From IMG/VR virus record IMGVR_UViG_3300020404_000607, positions 1 through 29,402 of that record: a stretch of DNA of 29,402 bases; one strand, given 5' to 3'. Both the position numbers and the translations under genes were made by a program. This DNA comes from a virus. Position 1 is the first letter of the stretch, and each line of letters opens with the position of its first letter. Positions 7,353 to 14,353 of the stretch are shown here, in pieces. The notes under the pieces were generated by a model. It was given only the letters and a program-made list of their open reading frames with translations, was not told the origin of the DNA and ran no database searches.

Positions 7353-8780
7353 TTAGACATTTTTAACCTGTGCATCTGATTTTCTTCGAACTATAGTAAT
7401 TGGTTGAGGTTTTAACTCACCTATTTTTCTTGCTTTTCGTGTTTTCTTAGGTTTACCATTAACTGCCCAAAATATATCTTTACGGTCTTCTCTAAAATTA
7501 CCTTCAATATATATTGGAAAATAACCTGAGATACTATCTATAACATGACAAAACATAATTACGTTATCACTATATGCATTATTACAAGATGCTTCCCAAA
7601 GTTCACCTGTTAAAAATAAACAAGAACCTTTACATAGATGTATTACAGGACATTTAGGACAGTCTGGTCGGTCACTCCAATGTGTGCCTGTTTTTATTTT
7701 TACTTTCTCTAAATCATTTACATGACCAATATGATGTGAAATGCCTGCAGGATTAGTTGATACAGGACTTACATTTTGACAAGTCAAAACATTTCCATTT
7801 AAATCTACAGCCATATTTTTTCTTTCACTCATTCCGCATTTTTGAGGTAATGTTTCTACACGTCTTCCTATCTGTAGACTTTTAATAAAGTCTCTGGCTT
7901 TTTTGTCAACTAAACCAAATCTTGACGCTGTGTTTTCTCTTAATTCAGCAACCGCTTTGATTCTGTAATCAATATCTTTTTCACCATCTAGTAAAGAAGT
8001 ATCAAGACCTCCGTCATCATATGCATCAATAAATCCACCTTCACCAAGTTCTAAATATTGTAAATATTCTTTACCAATTTCTTTTTCTACAAAGTTTTCA
8101 AACCATTTTTGAACAGTTGCACGACTTATATTATCGGCATGTATCATTGAATTAAAAGACATTCTACCTTTAGGTGCTAATCTTTTAAATAAATCTATAA
8201 TACCTACTTTTGATTTAGGGTCACTCAAAGGGTCAGGACCACGAATATGTTGACCTACAGCATCATGTGACATTCCTATAGAAAAACCATACTCTTCTAA
8301 AAAATCATTCTTTTCTTTATCTAATAAACTACCATTAGTAACCATACTCATTGTACAATCAGGATATTTTTTCTTTAATGCAATAGCTAATGGTTTCAAA
8401 GTTTTCCAATAAACTAAAGGTTCTCCTCCCCAAAATTCAAATCTTGGTTTGCCGTCACCATGATACCAGTTGTCCATGTTACTAACAAAGTCATCTACTT
8501 GTTTGTAATTAGTTGCTTTTGCTCTAGGAACAAATCTTTGACTACAGTATGAACAAGAATAGTTACAAGATAAACCTAATTGTATTTTAATTTTTTCTAG
8601 TTCACCTTTTCCTTTTTCCATTTCTGCAACTTTAACGTTATTTGGGTCTTGTACTTCTGCACCTCTTATCACTGGCAGTCCTGTATCTTTCCAATGTAAC
8701 GTACTTACATCGGTATCGTATACCATTTGTCTTTTATGTTGTGTCTCAAAGTTATGACAAGTTAATGTAAATTTAGGCAT
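7353..8780 (-). CDS. Radical SAM/SPASM peptide- or protein-modifying enzyme
   Basis: This 475-residue enzyme has the radical SAM cluster motif C72-x3-C76-x2-C79 (GLSCNYSCSYCSQRF), GGEP for SAM binding (118-121) and MVTNGSLL (147-153). Its C-terminal part carries the complete SPASM signature: C315-x13-G329-x4-C334, then C374-x2-C377-x5-C383-x3-C387, then C399. This predicts two auxiliary [4Fe-4S] clusters, as in anaerobic sulfatase maturases and RiPP maturases, which act on peptide or protein side chains. The substrate is not identifiable here. An ATG at 8780 overlaps the previous stop as TAATG and is preferred over an upstream non-ATG start. The last 30 residues are a basic tail. It is last in a late operon with three putative 2OG oxygenases and an Ig-like protein. 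Such enzymes need a low-potential electron donor, presumably from the host. Confidence 0.9.
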   Translation of the reverse strand: MPKFTLTCHNFETQHKRQMVYDTDVSTLHWKDTGLPVIRGAEVQDPNNVKVAEMEKGKGELEKIKIQLGLSCNYSCSYCSQRFVPRAKATNYKQVDDFVSNMDNWYHGDGKPRFEFWGGEPLVYWKTLKPLAIALKKKYPDCTMSMVTNGSLLDKEKNDFLEEYGFSIGMSHDAVGQHIRGPDPLSDPKSKVGIIDLFKRLAPKGRMSFNSMIHADNISRATVQKWFENFVEKEIGKEYLQYLELGEGGFIDAYDDGGLDTSLLDGEKDIDYRIKAVAELRENTASRFGLVDKKARDFIKSLQIGRRVETLPQKCGMSERKNMAVDLNGNVLTCQNVSPVSTNPAGISHHIGHVNDLEKVKIKTGTHWSDRPDCPKCPVIHLCKGSCLFLTGELWEASCNNAYSDNVIMFCHVIDSISGYFPIYIEGNFREDRKDIFWAVNGKPKKTRKARKIGELKPQPITIVRRKSDAQVKNV

Positions 8781-9319
8781 TACTTTTGTACCCTTGGTTT
8801 GTAAATATATTCCCATTTAGATGCAGGAGTTAAATGTAACCCTACACTTATTCTGAGTTTATTTTTTTCACTAGGTGTCTCAGGCATATGAAACAGATTA
8901 GAATTAAAAAGAACAGCCCTATTTGGTACATATGGCACTCTATGAATTTGGTCATCTTGATGTATTTGTAATGCACCTGCCCAATCATTTTTCCATTCTT
9001 TAGAACCAAACCAGATAAGACTAAGGTCTTTTGGTGTGCCGTCTTGATGTAAATGTGACTCGTTCAATGCAGTTGCACCATTGATGCCTACTCGTTGTAC
9101 AGCATAAGGTGTTTTTATTTGTTGATGGTCTAGTGAATTACAAGTTGTAAATCTGTTATACAATTTTTCTCCTATTGCCTTTTCTACATCAGGATTAAAA
9201 ATACGCCAACCTTGATTGCCTGTTATGTTACTTAAATTTGGAAACTGCCAATAACCTTTTTTAAAAAATTCGTAACAGTAATCCCAATCTTCATCTTTTA
9301 AAAAATTATCTATAATCAT
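8780..9319 (-). CDS. 2OG-Fe(II) oxygenase (HxD...H...R type)
   Basis: This 179-residue protein has a complete facial-triad pattern: H91-Q-D93 in SHLHQDG, H144 in NSNLFHMPE and the 2-oxoglutarate-binding R156 in LRISVGLHL. The double-stranded beta-helix strands around them (WAGALQIH, RAVLFNS) fit the prolyl-4-hydroxylase-like 2OG oxygenase fold. Such enzymes hydroxylate proteins or small molecules using Fe(II), O2 and 2-oxoglutarate. It is clearly different in sequence from the two oxygenase-like genes before it. The ATG overlaps the previous stop (ATGA) and its own stop overlaps the radical SAM start (TAATG), so stoichiometric co-expression is likely. The substrate is unknown. Confidence 0.85.
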   Translation of the reverse strand: MIIDNFLKDEDWDYCYEFFKKGYWQFPNLSNITGNQGWRIFNPDVEKAIGEKLYNRFTTCNSLDHQQIKTPYAVQRVGINGATALNESHLHQDGTPKDLSLIWFGSKEWKNDWAGALQIHQDDQIHRVPYVPNRAVLFNSNLFHMPETPSEKNKLRISVGLHLTPASKWEYIYKPRVQK

Positions 9320-9939
9320 ATTGTAATAAAAGAGTCTGCTTGTTGTCTGTCCTTAACTTTGGCGTTTATAACAATAAATATTCTATCTCTTTTTCCTTTA
9401 TACATCTCAGATTCATGAAATAGATATGATGGATGTATGATTAACATTTTAGGTTTAGGTTGTAATTGAATTAACATATCATGATTTAGACCTCTTGAGC
9501 GTTGTGCTATTGGGTCAATTAATAAAAACCTACCATCATCATTATCACACGTTGGGTCATTACTTTCTACATTATCTAAATCTATATAGTAAACTCCAGT
9601 ATAATCAATACCTCTATGAGTATGAGGTCGTGCCCGATTACCTTTGACAAATCTTCTAGGGAATGCAGTTACCTGTATTTCTAATTCATGTGGGTCTATA
9701 AATTTTTCTGCATATAACATCTCATACAGTTTTACTTTAATTCTTTCTTTAAACAATTTTATTATTGGTGTGTCTAAAGCAAATAGATTTGGTACTTTAA
9801 TCTCTTTGTTAAAAATTTCAGGAGTACCATTAAATTTATCAATCTCTGGCTCAACCGCTTTTAATAACTGAAGATTATCTTCACTGGTCAACAGGTCTTC
9901 TTCGACCATAATATTATTTACCCATGCTTGATATATCAT
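9316..9939 (-). CDS. Putative 2OG-Fe(II) oxygenase, paralog of the next upstream gene
   Basis: Using the ATG at 9939, which overlaps the upstream stop as ATGA, the protein has 207 residues; a longer reading would need TTG and 48 bases of overlap. It shares the pattern HTHRGIDYTGVYYIDLD (106-122), DPIAQRSR (142-149) and HPSYLFHESEMYKGKRDR (169-186) with the 215-residue neighbour. This resembles the 2OG-FeII_Oxy_5/TIGR02466 style, with H106 or H108 plus D112 and H169 or H175 as candidate iron ligands and R186 as the 2-oxoglutarate contact. The ligand assignment is tentative because the classic HxD is not exact. Close paralogs lie side by side, so a gene duplication followed by substrate specialisation is plausible. 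Confidence 0.78.
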   Translation of the reverse strand: MIYQAWVNNIMVEEDLLTSEDNLQLLKAVEPEIDKFNGTPEIFNKEIKVPNLFALDTPIIKLFKERIKVKLYEMLYAEKFIDPHELEIQVTAFPRRFVKGNRARPHTHRGIDYTGVYYIDLDNVESNDPTCDNDDGRFLLIDPIAQRSRGLNHDMLIQLQPKPKMLIIHPSYLFHESEMYKGKRDRIFIVINAKVKDRQQADSFITI

Positions 9940-10583
9940 AGTTTTTTGTAAAACGGTGCTTGTATAGGTTCTGCTACTCTGCAAACAACAGTAAAGAAAG
10001 ACCTAGTTTTTTTGCCTAAATAAGGTTCACTAAAATGATACAAATATGCAGGGTGCATGACAAGCATTTTAGGATAAACTACTACGTCTACGTTTTGTGT
10101 GTGGTTCATTGCTCTTGACCTTTGTGATATAGGGTCAGTAAAAATAAATCTACCTTTAGGTTGTTTAAAATTATCACCTAGACCTTCCATAGGATCCAAA
10201 TCTGCATAATATACTGCCACATAATCACAACCTCTGTGATTGTGTGTTTTACTTCTGTCACCATGTTCGTGTTCTCGATATGCGGCTACTGCTTCAATGT
10301 CATATTTTTCAGGTTCAATAAAACCATCTGCTTCCATTAATAATCTTACACGAGATTTTATAAGAGCTGCAAGTTTATCTATAGCAGGATGGTCAACATT
10401 GAATAAATTATAACCTTGACGATTAGGGTCTTGAATATCTGGAACATGTTTAAATACTTTTGAGTGTTCTTTACCAATTCTAATTAACTCTTGATTATCT
10501 TCATCAGTTATGTCAACGCCTTCCATAATAACGTTTGTTGCCCAGAAAGACTGTAGTTTTATATTTTCATTATCTAATTTCAT
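9936..10583 (-). CDS. Putative 2OG-Fe(II) oxygenase
   Basis: This 215-residue protein resembles the TIGR02466/2OG-FeII_Oxy_5 group found widely in marine T4-like phages. Key stretches are THNHRGCDYVAVYYADLD (113-130), GRFIFTDPISQRSR (144-157) and HPAYLYHFSEPYLGKKTR (177-194). Candidate iron ligands are H114 or H116, D120 and H177 or H183; R194 is the likely 2-oxoglutarate contact. AGGAAAGG precedes its ATG, which lies inside the end of the Ig-like protein gene (14-base overlap). Expression is therefore tied to a virion-like protein, which hints at a role in modifying virion proteins, though this is an inference from context. Substrate unknown. Confidence 0.8.
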   Translation of the reverse strand: MKLDNENIKLQSFWATNVIMEGVDITDEDNQELIRIGKEHSKVFKHVPDIQDPNRQGYNLFNVDHPAIDKLAALIKSRVRLLMEADGFIEPEKYDIEAVAAYREHEHGDRSKTHNHRGCDYVAVYYADLDPMEGLGDNFKQPKGRFIFTDPISQRSRAMNHTQNVDVVVYPKMLVMHPAYLYHFSEPYLGKKTRSFFTVVCRVAEPIQAPFYKKL

Positions 10584-11334
10584 ATTCTACCTTTCCTGTA
10601 AAATGTTTAAAACCTGCTTTAACTTTGCCTCTACCTTTAAATAAAATCTTAGTACTTGCTTTACCTACATTGTTTGTATAAATTCTATTTTCACGCAACA
10701 CACCTGTTGTTGTTTCTAAAAATATTTCTACATTTTCTTTAAGAGCATTTGTACCATCAGCTTCTAATAATTGTGCTGTAATATTATCTTCATTATCCAT
10801 ACTTAATTGAATCGTTGGCATCATAGGAATAATATCATCTAATCCGTTACCATTAATAGTTTCTATCATTTTATCACCTTGTTCAACACCATTAATTATA
10901 ATTTTAGAAGCAGGTAGAAATACAATCCAATCGTCAATGGGTGAGTCTGCCCAAGGTCTAGCAAAAGAGAAACCTTGTTGTATACCTAACATTGATGCTA
11001 CAACATGTCCTGTAGTTGATTTAGATTCACTAGTGTGTCTGAAGAAATCGTATACTCTAACTTTTTCATGTAATCTAAAACCTACAGCGATAATTGCGTG
11101 TGGTTGATTTATCTGTTTATTAGAAGATGTGTCTCTGTTTAAGTCAGCTCGAGACAAGTAACCTTGATAGTGGTCTCTTTGGTCCATACGCATTTCACGT
11201 CTGTATGTAACGAGGGAGTCTTTACTACCCATTAGTTGTAAGTCATATTCCAGGCCTTCTGGAGTATGATTGATTCTTAATTCATTTGGGGATTGTTGCT
11301 CATTTACATGAGGGCATTTTTTGTATCCAATCAT
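10570..11334 (-). CDS. Ig-like virion protein, paralog of the 228-residue protein
   Basis: This 254-residue protein is taken from the ATG at 11334, which has AAGGAG 8 bases upstream; a GTG 9 bases earlier would overlap that ribosome binding site. Its C-terminal 75 residues form an Ig-like (invasin/Big_1 style) domain: VEIFLETTTGVLRENRIYTN, then NVGKAST and KVKAGFKHFTGKVEYEI. The same domain and an upstream segment (HAI..., FFRHT, DSPIDDW) are shared with the preceding 228-residue protein, so the two are full-length paralogs. Ig-like domains decorate many phage capsids and tails. It is the first gene of the oxygenase/radical SAM operon and so a candidate substrate or partner for these enzymes. 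Confidence 0.72.
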   Translation of the reverse strand: MIGYKKCPHVNEQQSPNELRINHTPEGLEYDLQLMGSKDSLVTYRREMRMDQRDHYQGYLSRADLNRDTSSNKQINQPHAIIAVGFRLHEKVRVYDFFRHTSESKSTTGHVVASMLGIQQGFSFARPWADSPIDDWIVFLPASKIIINGVEQGDKMIETINGNGLDDIIPMMPTIQLSMDNEDNITAQLLEADGTNALKENVEIFLETTTGVLRENRIYTNNVGKASTKILFKGRGKVKAGFKHFTGKVEYEIR

Positions 11335-11380: not shown

Positions 11381-11388
11381 TATTTATA
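11381..11388 (-). promoter_or_regulatory. T4-type late promoter (TATAAATA) for the Ig-like/oxygenase/radical SAM cassette
   Basis: The plus strand reads tatttata in the gap between the two Ig-like genes, 46 bases before the chosen ATG at 11334. The leader ends with AAAAGGAGTGTATTTA before the ATG and contains the palindrome ATCATGAT inside an AT-rich dyad. This places the enzyme cassette under late control, with the virion genes. Confidence 0.85.
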
Positions 11389-11396
11389 TGGATATT

Positions 11397-12083
11397 TTAT
11401 ATAGTTATTTCTGCTTTGCCTGAGAAATATTTGAAACCTGCTTTTACTTTACCTGCGGAAGCACCAACTACTGTAGTTGTAGCGACACCACTTGAATTTG
11501 TTTTGACTCTATTTTTATTTAGATATCCGCCTGTAGTTTCAAAGTAAATCTCTACGTCTTCTTTGACAGGGTCGATTGTAGCTGAAATATCTGTTCCGTC
11601 TTTAGACATTGAAATACTTGGTAGTAAGTCGCCGGCAGCAGCACCAATCGACCTATTATTATCTACATTAAATGTAGCAAGAGCACTACCTTCATTTGTA
11701 GCAATACTTGAGTTTACTACTAATGTCCAATCATCTGTTGAACTATCAACATAAGGTATAAACACAAACACTATAGGTTTAATGTTCATTAAATTTCTAA
11801 GTGACCCTACACTTGACTTGTTGTGTTGTGTATGTTTAAAAAAGTTTGTAGCTTTTAATGTACCAGCTGCACCATAATTGTCGTCATGAACTGACAATAC
11901 AGAAATAGCATGATGTGTACTAATAGTTTCTTTTGATTTATGGTCTGCTAAAATAAGGTCTTTATCAAACTCATATGTATTTGAACCTATTGTAATTTCA
12001 AATTCGTCACTACCTTTATCTTTTAGTGTTACTGTTTGGTCTTTATATGCCGGTTCAGTTTGTGTATTTTTTCTTAAATTCAT
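11397..12083 (-). CDS. Ig-like virion protein (228 residues)
   Basis: The protein has an N-terminal beta-rich part with VTLKDKGSDEFEITIGSNTY, a middle part with HHAISVLSVHDDNYGAAG and NFFKHTQHNKSS, and a C-terminal Ig-like domain (about 170-228) with VEIYFETTGGYLNKNRVKT, SSGVATTTV and KVKAGFKYFSGKAEITI. It aligns along its whole length with the 254-residue protein downstream, at moderate identity, which shows an old tandem duplication. It contains no cysteine. It starts 11 bases after the stop of the large fibre-like gene with AAGGATAAACA upstream, so it is probably read from the same late transcript. A decoration or fibre-accessory role is likely, but the location is unknown. Confidence 0.7.
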   Translation of the reverse strand: MNLRKNTQTEPAYKDQTVTLKDKGSDEFEITIGSNTYEFDKDLILADHKSKETISTHHAISVLSVHDDNYGAAGTLKATNFFKHTQHNKSSVGSLRNLMNIKPIVFVFIPYVDSSTDDWTLVVNSSIATNEGSALATFNVDNNRSIGAAAGDLLPSISMSKDGTDISATIDPVKEDVEIYFETTGGYLNKNRVKTNSSGVATTTVVGASAGKVKAGFKYFSGKAEITI

Positions 12084-12094
12084 TGTTTATCCTT

Positions 12095-12130
12095 TTAACA
12101 GTTACAGTTACACGCACAGTCGTGGTTGTG
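12095..12130 (-). other. Codons for the HNHDCACNCNC tail
   Basis: Residues 742-752 plus the stop of the fibre-like gene encode HNH, D, then C-A-C-N-C-N-C. The alternating cysteine spacing is regular, and all four Cys codons are TGT or TGC. In a trimeric fibre this would place twelve cysteines and six histidines at one end. That fits metal binding, disulfide or thioether crosslinking, or an enzyme-modified tip. I list it separately because of the nearby radical SAM/SPASM and oxygenase genes. Confidence 0.85.
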
Positions 12131-14353
12131 ACCAGATGAAGCAAAACCGGAAACGGCATTGAATGTTCCGTCGCCTCTTAAAAATGTAGTACTATTTCTT
12201 GTACCACTAGCAGAAATTTTAGCCAATGTAACTTGGTTGTCTCCTATGTGGGCAGTATCAATACTACCGTCTGTATAATGTTCACTATTGATTGCATCAT
12301 CAGCAATTTTAGCACCTGTGATTGCGTCTGCCTGAATGTCTGCTGTTGCGACTGTATCGTTTGGTAGTAAAGGTACTTGACTAAATGTAACTACACCGTT
12401 TGAAGCAATTGTCATAGCATCTGCATCTGAAGCAACACCTATTGTACCGCCATCTTTAATTACTAAATCATCTGCAATAGTTAAAAGACCAGCAGAACTT
12501 AATGACATTTTTTCTGAAGCTGCTTCTGAAACGCCTGTTTTGAAACTTAATTTTGTTGCATTACTAGAAGAACTAAAGTCTCCTTCTGAGACAGCCTCAA
12601 TACCAGCAGCAACAAGTATCGCATCTGTACCTGTTCCCTCATCTGGTGCCTGAAAATCTATTTTACCAATAACATCATTAGCAGCGATATCTGTTTCGCC
12701 TGTTTGTAATGTTAATGAAACTGGTTTATCGTCTGCCGTAGCAGTATGTTTTAATATTAGTCCTGTGTCAGCAGTATGAATTAATCTAATTTCTTGGTCA
12801 TTACCAAATTGAATTGTACCGCCATCTGCCAAGAATAAATCTGACCACTCTAATGAAGCAGAACCTAAAGCTTCTCCGTCAGCACTTGAAGGATTACTTG
12901 AGCCTGCAGCCGCAAAGGATAATACACCAGAACCATTTGTTACTAATGCCTCTCCACTACTTCCGTCTGAAGATGGTAGAGCAAATGATGTGCCTCCAGA
13001 TGTAAGTGTAAGTTTTGAACCATCTGATTCAATTTTTTCGTTTGCATCTGTAAAGTGTAAACCTACGTTTGTAGGAATAATAACATCTGTAGCCGCTGTT
13101 AATTTAATATTGTTACCAGAGATAGTTAAATCTGTACCATCTCCTTCAATTTTTTCTGCTGAATCACCGAACACCATTCCTACATTGTTAGGTAAGTGTA
13201 CGTCACTTGTAGCAGTTAAGTTGATTTTAGCGCCTGATGTTATTGTTAAATCTGTGTTGTCGCCTTCTATTTTCTCGCCAGTACCGAAAGTAACTCCTAC
13301 GTTTGCAGGAACTACAACATCACTTGTAGCAGTTAAGTTAATTTTGCCACCAGATGTTACTGTTAAATCTGTATTATCGCCTTCAATCTTTTCACCAGTA
13401 CCAAATGTTATACCTACATCTGCAGGAACTACAACATCTGCTGTAGCAGTAAGATTAATATTATTACCTGAGATAGTTAAATCTGTTCCGTCGCCTTCAA
13501 TTTTCTCAGCATCATTACCGAATGTTAATCCAACATTTGCAGGTATGTTAATATCTGTTACTGCTGTTAGATTAAGGTCAGCACCAGCATTGATAGTTAA
13601 ATCTGTTCCGTCTGAAGATATTTTCTCTCCACCTTTATCAAAGAAGTAAACTGCCCTATCATCAGCAATTCTCATTACTTCGTTACCGTCATACTGATTA
13701 AATACTAAGTCGTCTGAGTCGACACCGAGTTGAATAACTTGAGCACCTGAAGTGCCGTCCATGTCTAGAGTAAGTTGTAAAGTACCAGCGTCTTTGAATT
13801 CTACGTTACCACCAGCAGCATCTATAACGATATCGTTTGATGAGTCTAGTGTAATATCTGTGCCATCGTTTGTAATGGAGTCAAGTGCAATACTTCCAAT
13901 ATTTGTAATGTCAGCATCACTCATATCGAAACTACCTGTTACATCTAAGTTTCCACCAATACTTGCATTACCTGTAACTGTTAAGTTATCAGCGATTGTT
14001 GTTTCACTTGTAGTATGTCCGATTGTTACAACGATACCAGAGGTTTCAGTTGCAATTTTTAAAGCACCTGTTTTGTTTGCAACATATGAATTAGTGCCAT
14101 CGTGATAGATTTCTAAATCATCACCAGTACCAAATAGTCCCTTTGCACTATCAGCAAATTTTTGACTACTTCCTGTTAATACACTAAATGTATTTGCTGT
14201 GAATTGAAAGTCATCGGCATCCGAAATCTTAATATCAATCTGGTCATCTGTGTCCGCTGTTATTGTCGTATCACGGTCAGCATCTAAAATTAATTCTGCG
14301 CCGTCTAAATCTAAAAGATTTTTACCAATTAAGTTTTTTTCGATATATGCCAT
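12095..14353 (-). CDS. Large tail-fibre-like protein with six repeats and a Cys-rich C-terminal tail
   Basis: This 752-residue Asp/Thr/Ser/Gly-rich protein has typical marine-phage fibre phrases: FADSAKGLFGTGDDLEIYHDG (66-86), LEWSDLFLADGGTI (501-514) and TTFLRGDGTFNAV (722-734). Six tandem repeats of 38-40 residues begin with EKIxxDxTDLT at 243, 283, 321, 360, 400 and 439 and fit a beta-solenoid or trimeric fibre shaft. The last 12 residues are GHNHDCACNCNC. These are the only four cysteines in the protein, and the HxH (742-744) recalls iron-binding HxH motifs of T4 gp37 tips. It lies where T4 encodes gp12 and other fibres and starts 10 bases after a small virion gene. A receptor-facing fibre is the best guess; no adhesin domain is recognisable. 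Confidence 0.8.
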   Translation of the reverse strand: MAYIEKNLIGKNLLDLDGAELILDADRDTTITADTDDQIDIKISDADDFQFTANTFSVLTGSSQKFADSAKGLFGTGDDLEIYHDGTNSYVANKTGALKIATETSGIVVTIGHTTSETTIADNLTVTGNASIGGNLDVTGSFDMSDADITNIGSIALDSITNDGTDITLDSSNDIVIDAAGGNVEFKDAGTLQLTLDMDGTSGAQVIQLGVDSDDLVFNQYDGNEVMRIADDRAVYFFDKGGEKISSDGTDLTINAGADLNLTAVTDINIPANVGLTFGNDAEKIEGDGTDLTISGNNINLTATADVVVPADVGITFGTGEKIEGDNTDLTVTSGGKINLTATSDVVVPANVGVTFGTGEKIEGDNTDLTITSGAKINLTATSDVHLPNNVGMVFGDSAEKIEGDGTDLTISGNNIKLTAATDVIIPTNVGLHFTDANEKIESDGSKLTLTSGGTSFALPSSDGSSGEALVTNGSGVLSFAAAGSSNPSSADGEALGSASLEWSDLFLADGGTIQFGNDQEIRLIHTADTGLILKHTATADDKPVSLTLQTGETDIAANDVIGKIDFQAPDEGTGTDAILVAAGIEAVSEGDFSSSSNATKLSFKTGVSEAASEKMSLSSAGLLTIADDLVIKDGGTIGVASDADAMTIASNGVVTFSQVPLLPNDTVATADIQADAITGAKIADDAINSEHYTDGSIDTAHIGDNQVTLAKISASGTRNSTTFLRGDGTFNAVSGFASSGHNHDCACNCNC
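12989..13627 (-). repeat. Six tandem 114-120-bp in-frame repeats (EKIEGD...TDLT unit)
   Basis: The array covers residues 243-455 of the fibre-like protein. The unit is roughly EKIEGDxTDLTIxSGxxINLTATxDVxxPxNVGxxFGxxx. The middle copies (residues 321-359 and 360-398) are the most alike and probably the youngest duplication. Between copies the DNA differs mainly at third positions, consistent with selection on the protein. Confidence 0.88.

Follow-up and report, generated by a model that had tools for sequence, protein, structure and literature searches.

The IMG/VR virus record IMGVR_UViG_3300020404_000607, analysed here over its whole length (a single viral record of 29,402 nucleotides, or 29.4 kb; hereafter the window), encodes an enzyme of the radical S-adenosylmethionine (SAM)/SPASM type and, upstream on the same strand, a tail fibre-like protein that ends in alternating asparagine and cysteine residues. 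Genes for relatives of this enzyme and genes ending in such an (Asn-Cys)n tip are strongly linked, and because the pairing holds in both directions, from enzyme to tip and from tip to enzyme, it is very likely that the enzyme acts on the tip. An earlier, sequence-only reading of the window had proposed that a cassette of one radical SAM/SPASM enzyme, three putative 2-oxoglutarate (2OG) oxygenases and an immunoglobulin (Ig)-like protein modifies virion proteins late in infection. The setting among structural-region genes, the late-type promoter and the tie between the radical SAM gene and structural genes agree with that idea; the likely target, however, lies outside the cassette, in a cysteine-rich fibre tip (12098-12118) that the reading missed.

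The fibre-like gene (Table 1) ends in GHNHDCACNCNC directly before its stop codon, and a longer portion of the same end reads FASSGHNHDCACNCNC. Ahead of the tip, CACNCNC, stands GHNHD. The 752-residue protein contains exactly four cysteines, at residues 746, 748, 750 and 752; the chance that four randomly placed cysteines would all fall within the last seven residues is 2.6e-9. Part of the protein matches a putative tail fibre protein of Roseobacter phage CRP-345 (32% of the length, 1e-19), and its PHROG family has no named function.

To survey the pairing, a four-enzyme alignment served as query against viral contigs, and the best 80 of the 351 loci confirmed among the first 600 candidates were taken; this set is a lower bound, and more loci exist (an earlier scan with the window enzyme alone had given two near-identical loci). 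A 57-row alignment then gave 71 loci in a genome collection with one entry per species, with records titled Limnohabitans, Burkholderia paludis, Polynucleobacter, Rhodoplanes tepidamans, Thalassobius vesicularis and Magnetospirillum among them. From a total of 155 loci, L002-L005 included, the 148 whose family enzyme scored at least 100 bits were kept and seven were dropped. A tip gene was defined as a closed frame of at least 60 amino acids in which CxCxC, with N or D between the cysteines, stands no more than 12 residues from the end, or before a Hint-type start, or, where at least four cysteines are present, within 60 residues of the end.

A same-strand tip gene occurs in 127 of the 148 loci overall. 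Where at least 2.5 kb of sequence lies upstream of the enzyme the figure is 120 of 127, with the tip gene within 5 kb upstream in 116. The same rule finds a tip on the opposite strand of one locus in 127, and in reversed sequence, both strands taken, of one in 148. Once near-copies of the enzyme are taken out, the tip is on the same strand in 92 of 99 loci and on the other in one of 99. The pairing spans different fibre families (clusters 2, 4 and others), phages and bacterial genomes. The sequence-only reading had named, as evidence that would count against it, a radical SAM gene sitting in unrelated metabolic clusters in related phages; these counts are the opposite. It had also expected the enzyme to co-occur with the oxygenases and the Ig-like protein, which is partly so: an Ig-like homologue is present in 109 of the 127 loci (82 of 99 without near-copies) and at least one 2OG-family gene in 75 (53 of 99), a count that rests on profiles of self-made clusters, but the most constant partner is the tip. 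The Ig-like partner and the 2OG oxygenases are accessory to the enzyme-tip pair.

Five contigs of metagenome-assembled genomes named Akkermansia muciniphila, Verrucomicrobia, Prosthecobacter or Planctomycetaceae (L144, L153, L151, L170, L173) carry enzymes that group on the tree with those of Comamonadaceae or viral contigs; perhaps these are phage contigs binned with the wrong host.

Starting from the tip leads back to the enzyme. A DNA pattern for CNCNCNC followed by a stop, framed without knowledge of the enzyme, picked out 46 viral-contig stretches with 31 different 40-residue ends, and in 43 of them it terminates a reading frame of at least 30 amino acids. The enzyme is found at an E-value of 1e-100 or better on 41 of the 46 contigs, which partly overlap the viral-contig loci drawn earlier with the enzyme. 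Among the enzyme-less contigs, two have 72 (L106) and 78 (L117) bases past the motif, and two others (L109, L123) lack such a frame. The serine version of the pattern occurs in three stretches, once at a frame end, and on none of the three contigs is there an enzyme.

Fibres provide a further starting point. Among 80 loci of a first fibre family, 69 hold tip and enzyme, seven the tip only, two were counted as tip-less with an enzyme and two were cut off; of the two "tip-less" fibres, one (L241) carries NCDCNCNCGTC followed by a Hint-type start and the other (L243) ends NCNCDRNCGC. None of the 80 is a complete tip-less relative, which made a co-loss test with this family unusable. For a second family, related through the fibre N-terminus and scored by a slightly wider rule (a separate tip gene within 2.5 kb downstream also counted), 31 of 80 loci hold both, and nine hold the tip alone, on contigs that run on for 72 to 1041 bases downstream. 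Another 40 have neither, 28 of them closed and 12 cut off, and in none is there an enzyme without a tip. A whole-contig search of 39 records, comprising 24 of the 28 closed tip-less loci and 15 tip-only ones, found the enzyme in none of the 24; the one match, on L298, consists of the first 39 enzyme residues at the very end of the contig.

The tips share a simple anatomy. In 98 different tips, Asn precedes the first cysteine in 91, the second in 86, the third in 68 and the last in 49, where D (16) and A (13) also occur; a cysteine stands directly at the stop in 42. The repeat unit is thus Asn-Cys and is most constant at its start, a polarity that would fit acceptors lying upstream of donors. 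One locus (L079:7508-8388) has three small consecutive genes (92, 95 and 98 amino acids) after one fibre-like gene, each resembling a fibre C-terminal part and each with its own tip (NCNCNCNCNC, NCNCVCNC and NCNCNCNC); are these exchangeable tip cassettes?

Not all tips lie at the end of the gene. A Hint-type start (FPAGT or similar) stands at or directly after the tip run in ten loci (nine and L241). Six of these fibres were scanned, and all six match a Hint family at 0.01 or better, one above the cut-off and two only at 0.002-0.005. In Achromobacter phages JWF and 2-1 the gene two places upstream of the enzyme carries NCNCDCNCNCSC or NCNCDCNCSC, and FPAGT, the start of a Hint domain (with a Pfam match in JWF), follows without a gap. 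In JWF gp28 (L004:9646-11097) the Hint profile begins at residue 308, the last cysteine of the tip run, and for this reason that cysteine would be the Hint nucleophile; in L187, L188 and L241 an extra cysteine follows the tip run. In a quick 112-row tree of the enzymes, the eight Hint rows need three changes, counted against the oxygenase-bearing rows. The arrangement suggests that the tip may have to be a free end. In a Halomonas sulfidaeris genome (L196:5954-14023) there are two tip genes, one of them with a Hint domain behind it, and a short, 576-base enzyme frame.

The enzyme has the features of a radical SAM/SPASM protein. Its Pfam Radical_SAM match is above the cut-off, and the phrog_1802 profile covers residues 53-406. 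In 73 aligned relatives, reaching down to 26% identity with the window enzyme, the cysteines of CX3CX2C (C73, C77, C80) and the SPASM residues C316, G330, C335, C375, C378, C384, C388 and C400 are invariant. The SPASM layout (GX4C, CX2CX5CX3C and a final C) is full in the window enzyme; the CxxxCxxC and seven-cysteine signature noticed in the single sequence thus holds for all ten cysteines, three of the SAM cluster and seven of SPASM, across the family. The general SPASM model TIGR04085 scores 28.4 bits against a cut-off of 27 and, like the SCIFF maturase model TIGR03974, matches 57 of 57 relatives. Across these 57, PapB, a ranthipeptide maturase, has the lowest E-value (3.9e-19) among the 25 NCBIfam models listed, followed by sulfatase maturase and geopeptide maturase. 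By VIA-align, the predicted structure (mean predicted local distance difference test score, pLDDT, 93.2) lies nearest to 5why (Z 23.7, root-mean-square deviation 4.2, 354 aligned) and 5wgg (Z 23.3), structures titled thioether bond formation and presumably those of CteB; ChlB (21.1), the anaerobic sulfatase-maturating enzyme anSME (20.1), TigE (19.6) and EpeE (13.3) follow. The fold-comparison rows mostly span residues 54-421. Among annotated phages the closest relatives are the enzymes of JWF (45% identity) and 2-1 (48%), and a plasmid search gave three weak matches, annotated FibroRumin maturase, quinohemoprotein maturase and radical SAM protein.

In ranthipeptides, according to an extract of PMC8326336, the acceptor residues are Asn, Asp and Thr, and in NxxcA a beta-thioether joins Asn20 to Cys23. 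We lean towards a similar chemistry here, in which a maturase like those of ribosomally synthesized and post-translationally modified peptides (RiPPs) would cross-link the fibre tip through Asn-Cys thioethers with NxxC spacing. Three points favour a thioether at NxxC: these acceptors include Asn, N is most constant where the repeat starts, and the nearest fold found by VIA-align is that of a thioether-forming enzyme.

Several observations weigh against this reading, some touching the pairing and others the chemistry. Seven of the 127 loci fail the tip rule: L009 and L016 end INCRNCNC, L162 has NCNCDC ahead of an acidic tail, L150 looks frame-shifted, and nothing is seen in L074, L180 and L183. 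Owing to the relatedness of many loci, the counts are not independent. One tip contig of 23.7 kb (G026, at L111) is without an enzyme and unexplained. The seven tip-only contigs of the first fibre family, with 101 to 3872 bases left downstream and mostly near contig ends, hold the enzyme nowhere, even L268 with its 3872 bases, and the tip-less fibres of the second family are mostly more distant relatives. As to the chemistry, Foldseek places anSME first (4.4e-13) and 5why fourth, close behind (5.2e-13). Among the 25 models listed of the 34 NCBIfam models that match the window protein, viperin, not a peptide maturase, is in the first row, and the general SPASM model alone attains its cut-off (PapB scores 50.4 bits against 340). 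The approximately 57 residues ahead of the core are modelled as three strands, without the helices of a full RiPP recognition element (RRE). Because N and C alternate, Asn stands equally at -1, -3, +1 and +3, and most tips do not reveal the spacing; in some, N gives way to A, V, R or T.

It is possible, if unlikely, that the enzyme modifies the tip in another way, by making formylglycine from cysteine, by epimerising alternating residues or by forming some other bond. The enzyme shares the SPASM architecture of anSME, which is first by Foldseek and reaches a Z of 20.1 by VIA-align, and one GenBank record labels the JWF homologue an anaerobic sulfatase-maturating enzyme. Yet CxPxR, which we take to be the sulfatase motif, is present in the last 45 residues of none of 123 tip genes, and the Asp after a cluster cysteine that is presumably catalytic in anSME aligns here with Gln336, at least 90% conserved. 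Epimerisation would suit a two-residue repeat, the next epimerisation in polytheonamide being two residues away; however, proteusin epimerases carry only the radical SAM cluster (both points from the same extract of PMC8326336), and EpeE scores lower than the other folds named.

Were the tip instead a metal- or disulfide-binding element, the radical SAM enzyme would work on another neighbour, for example the Ig-like protein; we hold this to be improbable. CxCxC is a good metal ligand, and the window tip comes after GHNH, which resembles the iron-binding histidine motifs of T4 long tail fibres. Metal binding, however, needs no SPASM enzyme. The Ig-like protein is a frequent partner but a less constant one than the tip, which occurs without an Ig-like homologue in, for example, L004, L005, L158, L161 and L186-L189, and the two Ig-like proteins of the window hold zero and one cysteine.

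A still lower probability, very small in our estimate, attaches to an auxiliary metabolic or host-surface-modifying set that came to lie in a host recognition cluster by chance. Such clusters in pelagimyophages hold glycosyltransferases, and two genomes differ by radical SAM cassettes (PMC7029224, in an extract); the corresponding region of Mosig holds MoaA-like, aminotransferase and hydroxylase genes. This explanation does not sit well with a tight enzyme-tip pairing over different fibre families, phages and bacterial genomes, nor with JWF, where the neighbours of the enzyme are tail genes. Shared ancestry alone, with both genes carried along in one conserved phage block and no functional link between them, is hardly credible as the source of the pairing: many loci are related and some clades share the whole gene order, but the enzymes diverge to 26% identity, the fibres belong to different families, tips occur also on separate small proteins or on Hint-domain fibres, and the enzyme is on none of the 24 tip-less fibre contigs.

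The proposed thioether maturation can be set beside known systems. Like the ranthipeptide systems (NxxcB/NxxcA, PapB, CteB/SCIFF), the window combines a radical SAM core and a seven-cysteine SPASM domain with a cysteine-rich candidate substrate encoded nearby, in which Asn or Asp lies near Cys. In place of a leader-core peptide, however, the candidate here is the terminus of a large virion fibre; the enzyme model shows no full RRE, and the window protein scores far below the listed maturase cut-offs. The enzyme belongs to the same family as phrog_1802 ("radical SAM domain-containing protein", for example JWF gp30), whose members are annotated without a substrate. In JWF, as in the tip loci, a fibre-like gene with CNCDCNCNCSC lies two genes upstream of the enzyme; unlike in the window, a Hint domain follows the tip, and the intervening gene has no Pfam match. 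Radical SAM cassettes in this genome region of pelagimyophages are already known, as is phrog_1802 as a family; the extract of PMC7029224 reports the cassettes as presence, without substrate or tip. What appears new is the link to the fibre tip and, with it, a proposed RiPP-type radical SAM/SPASM maturation moved onto a virion part. An open-access literature search, whose scope excluded most subscription journals and all preprints, returned no title or opening of an abstract that describes fibre tips of this kind or a radical SAM enzyme acting on a virion.

The cassette lies in a structural region. The gene order there is a gp8-like baseplate wedge protein, a 2155-residue protein where relatives have VrlC (by position; the PHROG matches are unnamed), fibre genes and then the genes for head-tail adaptor, head closure, tail sheath stabilizer and terminase small subunit, which agrees with the location first given to the cassette. 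The site between gp8/VrlC-like and neck genes is the pelagimyophage host recognition cluster (PMC7029224, extract). The closest annotated-phage relatives of the gp8-like protein are those of Pelagibacter phages Mosig and HTVC008M and of Methylophilales phage Melnitz. In these three isolates (32-34 kb each) no CxCxC gene was found on the coding strand, and all three are absent from the 11 annotated records that match the enzyme at 1e-5. A nucleotide search with the cassette against annotated phages gave no match, nor did protein searches there with the Ig-like protein and the oxygenase at 9936-10583.

Table 1. Features of the enzyme-tip locus in the window.
Feature	Coordinates	Strand	Basis
Tail fibre-like protein, 752 aa, proposed substrate	12095-14353	minus	partial match to CRP-345 tail fibre
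C-terminal tip CACNCNC, proposed modification site	12098-12118	minus	read from sequence
First Ig-like partner, 228 aa	11397-12083	minus	clusters with 10570-11334 in relatives; Big_1 2.6e-4, below cut-off
Late promoter-like TATAAATA	11381-11388	minus	47 bases before ATG at 11334
Second Ig-like partner, 254 aa, first gene of overlapping set	10570-11334	minus	fold match
Putative 2OG-Fe(II) oxygenase, 215 aa	9936-10583	minus	PF13759 1.7e-7, above cut-off
Putative 2OG-Fe(II) oxygenase, 207 aa	9316-9939	minus	PF13759 4.2e-11, above cut-off; TIGR02466 2.8e-10, below cut-off
Probable 2OG-Fe(II) oxygenase, 179 aa	8780-9319	minus	PF13640 8.7e-5 and FlmC 2e-4, both below cut-off
Radical SAM/SPASM enzyme, 475 aa, proposed fibre-tip maturase	7353-8780	minus	PF04055 2.9e-11; phrog_1802 7.3e-60

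The five reading frames of the cassette stand in the order originally described and do overlap, by 1, 4, 4 and 14 bases if the radical SAM start is taken at 8780, where the ATG overlaps the upstream stop by one base (TAATG). The late-type promoter placed at 11381 was likewise recovered. TATAAATA occurs seven times in the window, and six of the seven copies lie on the coding strand with a gene start 19 to 61 bases downstream of them; by itself the number of copies is not significant (7 against 4.15 expected, with nine of 100 shuffles as high).

The Ig-like assignment of the protein at 10570-11334 (model mean pLDDT 84.5) stands on the fold of residues 172-254, which resemble a beta-glucuronidase domain (Z 11.3) and intimin (Z 10.3), but without a Pfam match above cut-off; the fold comparison says little outside these residues. 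This protein and the one at 11397-12083 are tandem paralogues, as are their counterparts in L002, L003 and L006-L008; most other drawn loci have one.

Two of the three putative oxygenases pass PF13759, whereas the third stays below the PF13640 cut-off. Among five oxygenase members from other loci (L042, L045, L051, L061, L076), two pass in Pfam, one is below the cut-off and two have no match. The third oxygenase-like protein of the window best matches phrog_274, "DNA endonuclease V" (3.9e-15), a family name that looks like a wrong annotation. A comparison of tip Asp with a locus oxygenase over 120 loci (both in 39, an oxygenase alone in 35, Asp alone in 17 and neither in 29) is confounded by lineage and was not used. 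The sequence-only reading knew of no described pathway joining a 2OG oxygenase to a SPASM enzyme; NCBIfam has FlmC, a 2OG oxygenase, and FlmE/OhkG, a radical SAM/SPASM peptide maturase, which share a gene prefix, and such a pathway may therefore already be known elsewhere. The matches here are weak, with window protein scores of 21.5 bits for FlmC and 29.8 for FlmE/OhkG against cut-offs of 240 and 500.

Other genes accompany the enzyme at some loci. In L097:734-4839 a 133-residue protein with 21 cysteines, ending (NC)n, lies between the radical SAM gene and a fibre-like gene whose end we take to be of peptidase S74 type; next come an Ig-like gene and a gene for a tryptophan halogenase (PF04820, 3.1e-30), the latter beside the enzyme. 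In HTVC008M a halogenase adjoins an oxygenase. A DctP gene of the TRAP-type solute-binding kind (9.5e-43) and two small conserved genes come after the radical SAM gene in L009:7277-8224 and many loci; in L033 and L034 the DctP set sits between the Ig-like partner and the radical SAM gene.

If the thioether reading is right, maturation may proceed as follows. Late in infection, after synthesis of the fibre, the enzyme would bind the extreme C-terminal Asn-Cys repeat (HNHDCACNCNC in the window). A SAM-derived radical would abstract a hydrogen from an Asn or Asp of the tip, and this residue would be joined to the cysteine three residues on (NxxC), giving a small thioether-bridged knob. The adjacent Ig-like protein might aid assembly of the fibre tip or present it; the 2OG oxygenases, found at approximately 60% of loci, might hydroxylate the tip or its neighbour; and in some phages the Hint domain after the tip would cleave itself off to leave the tip as a free end. 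We tentatively suggest that this could be an undescribed class of virion maturation, in phages and prophages of several bacterial groups, in which an (Asn-Cys)n fibre end becomes a ladder of overlapping Asn-Cys thioether rings, a locked tip for binding the host receptor that would carry added hydroxyl groups or halogens in some phages and be exposed by Hint in others.

The range of bacteria that a phage can bind depends in part on its tail-fibre tips. Should a radical enzyme cross-link the fibre ends, recombinant fibres produced in its absence could be inactive, and prediction of host range from sequence would miss a chemical layer. An enzyme family hitherto annotated only as "radical SAM" or sulfatase maturase now has a concrete candidate substrate, and it may offer a natural enzyme that staples a protein end carrying a short tag. 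Cross-linking of a fibre tip in the manner of some peptide natural products would, if true, amount to a novel way of building part of a virus.

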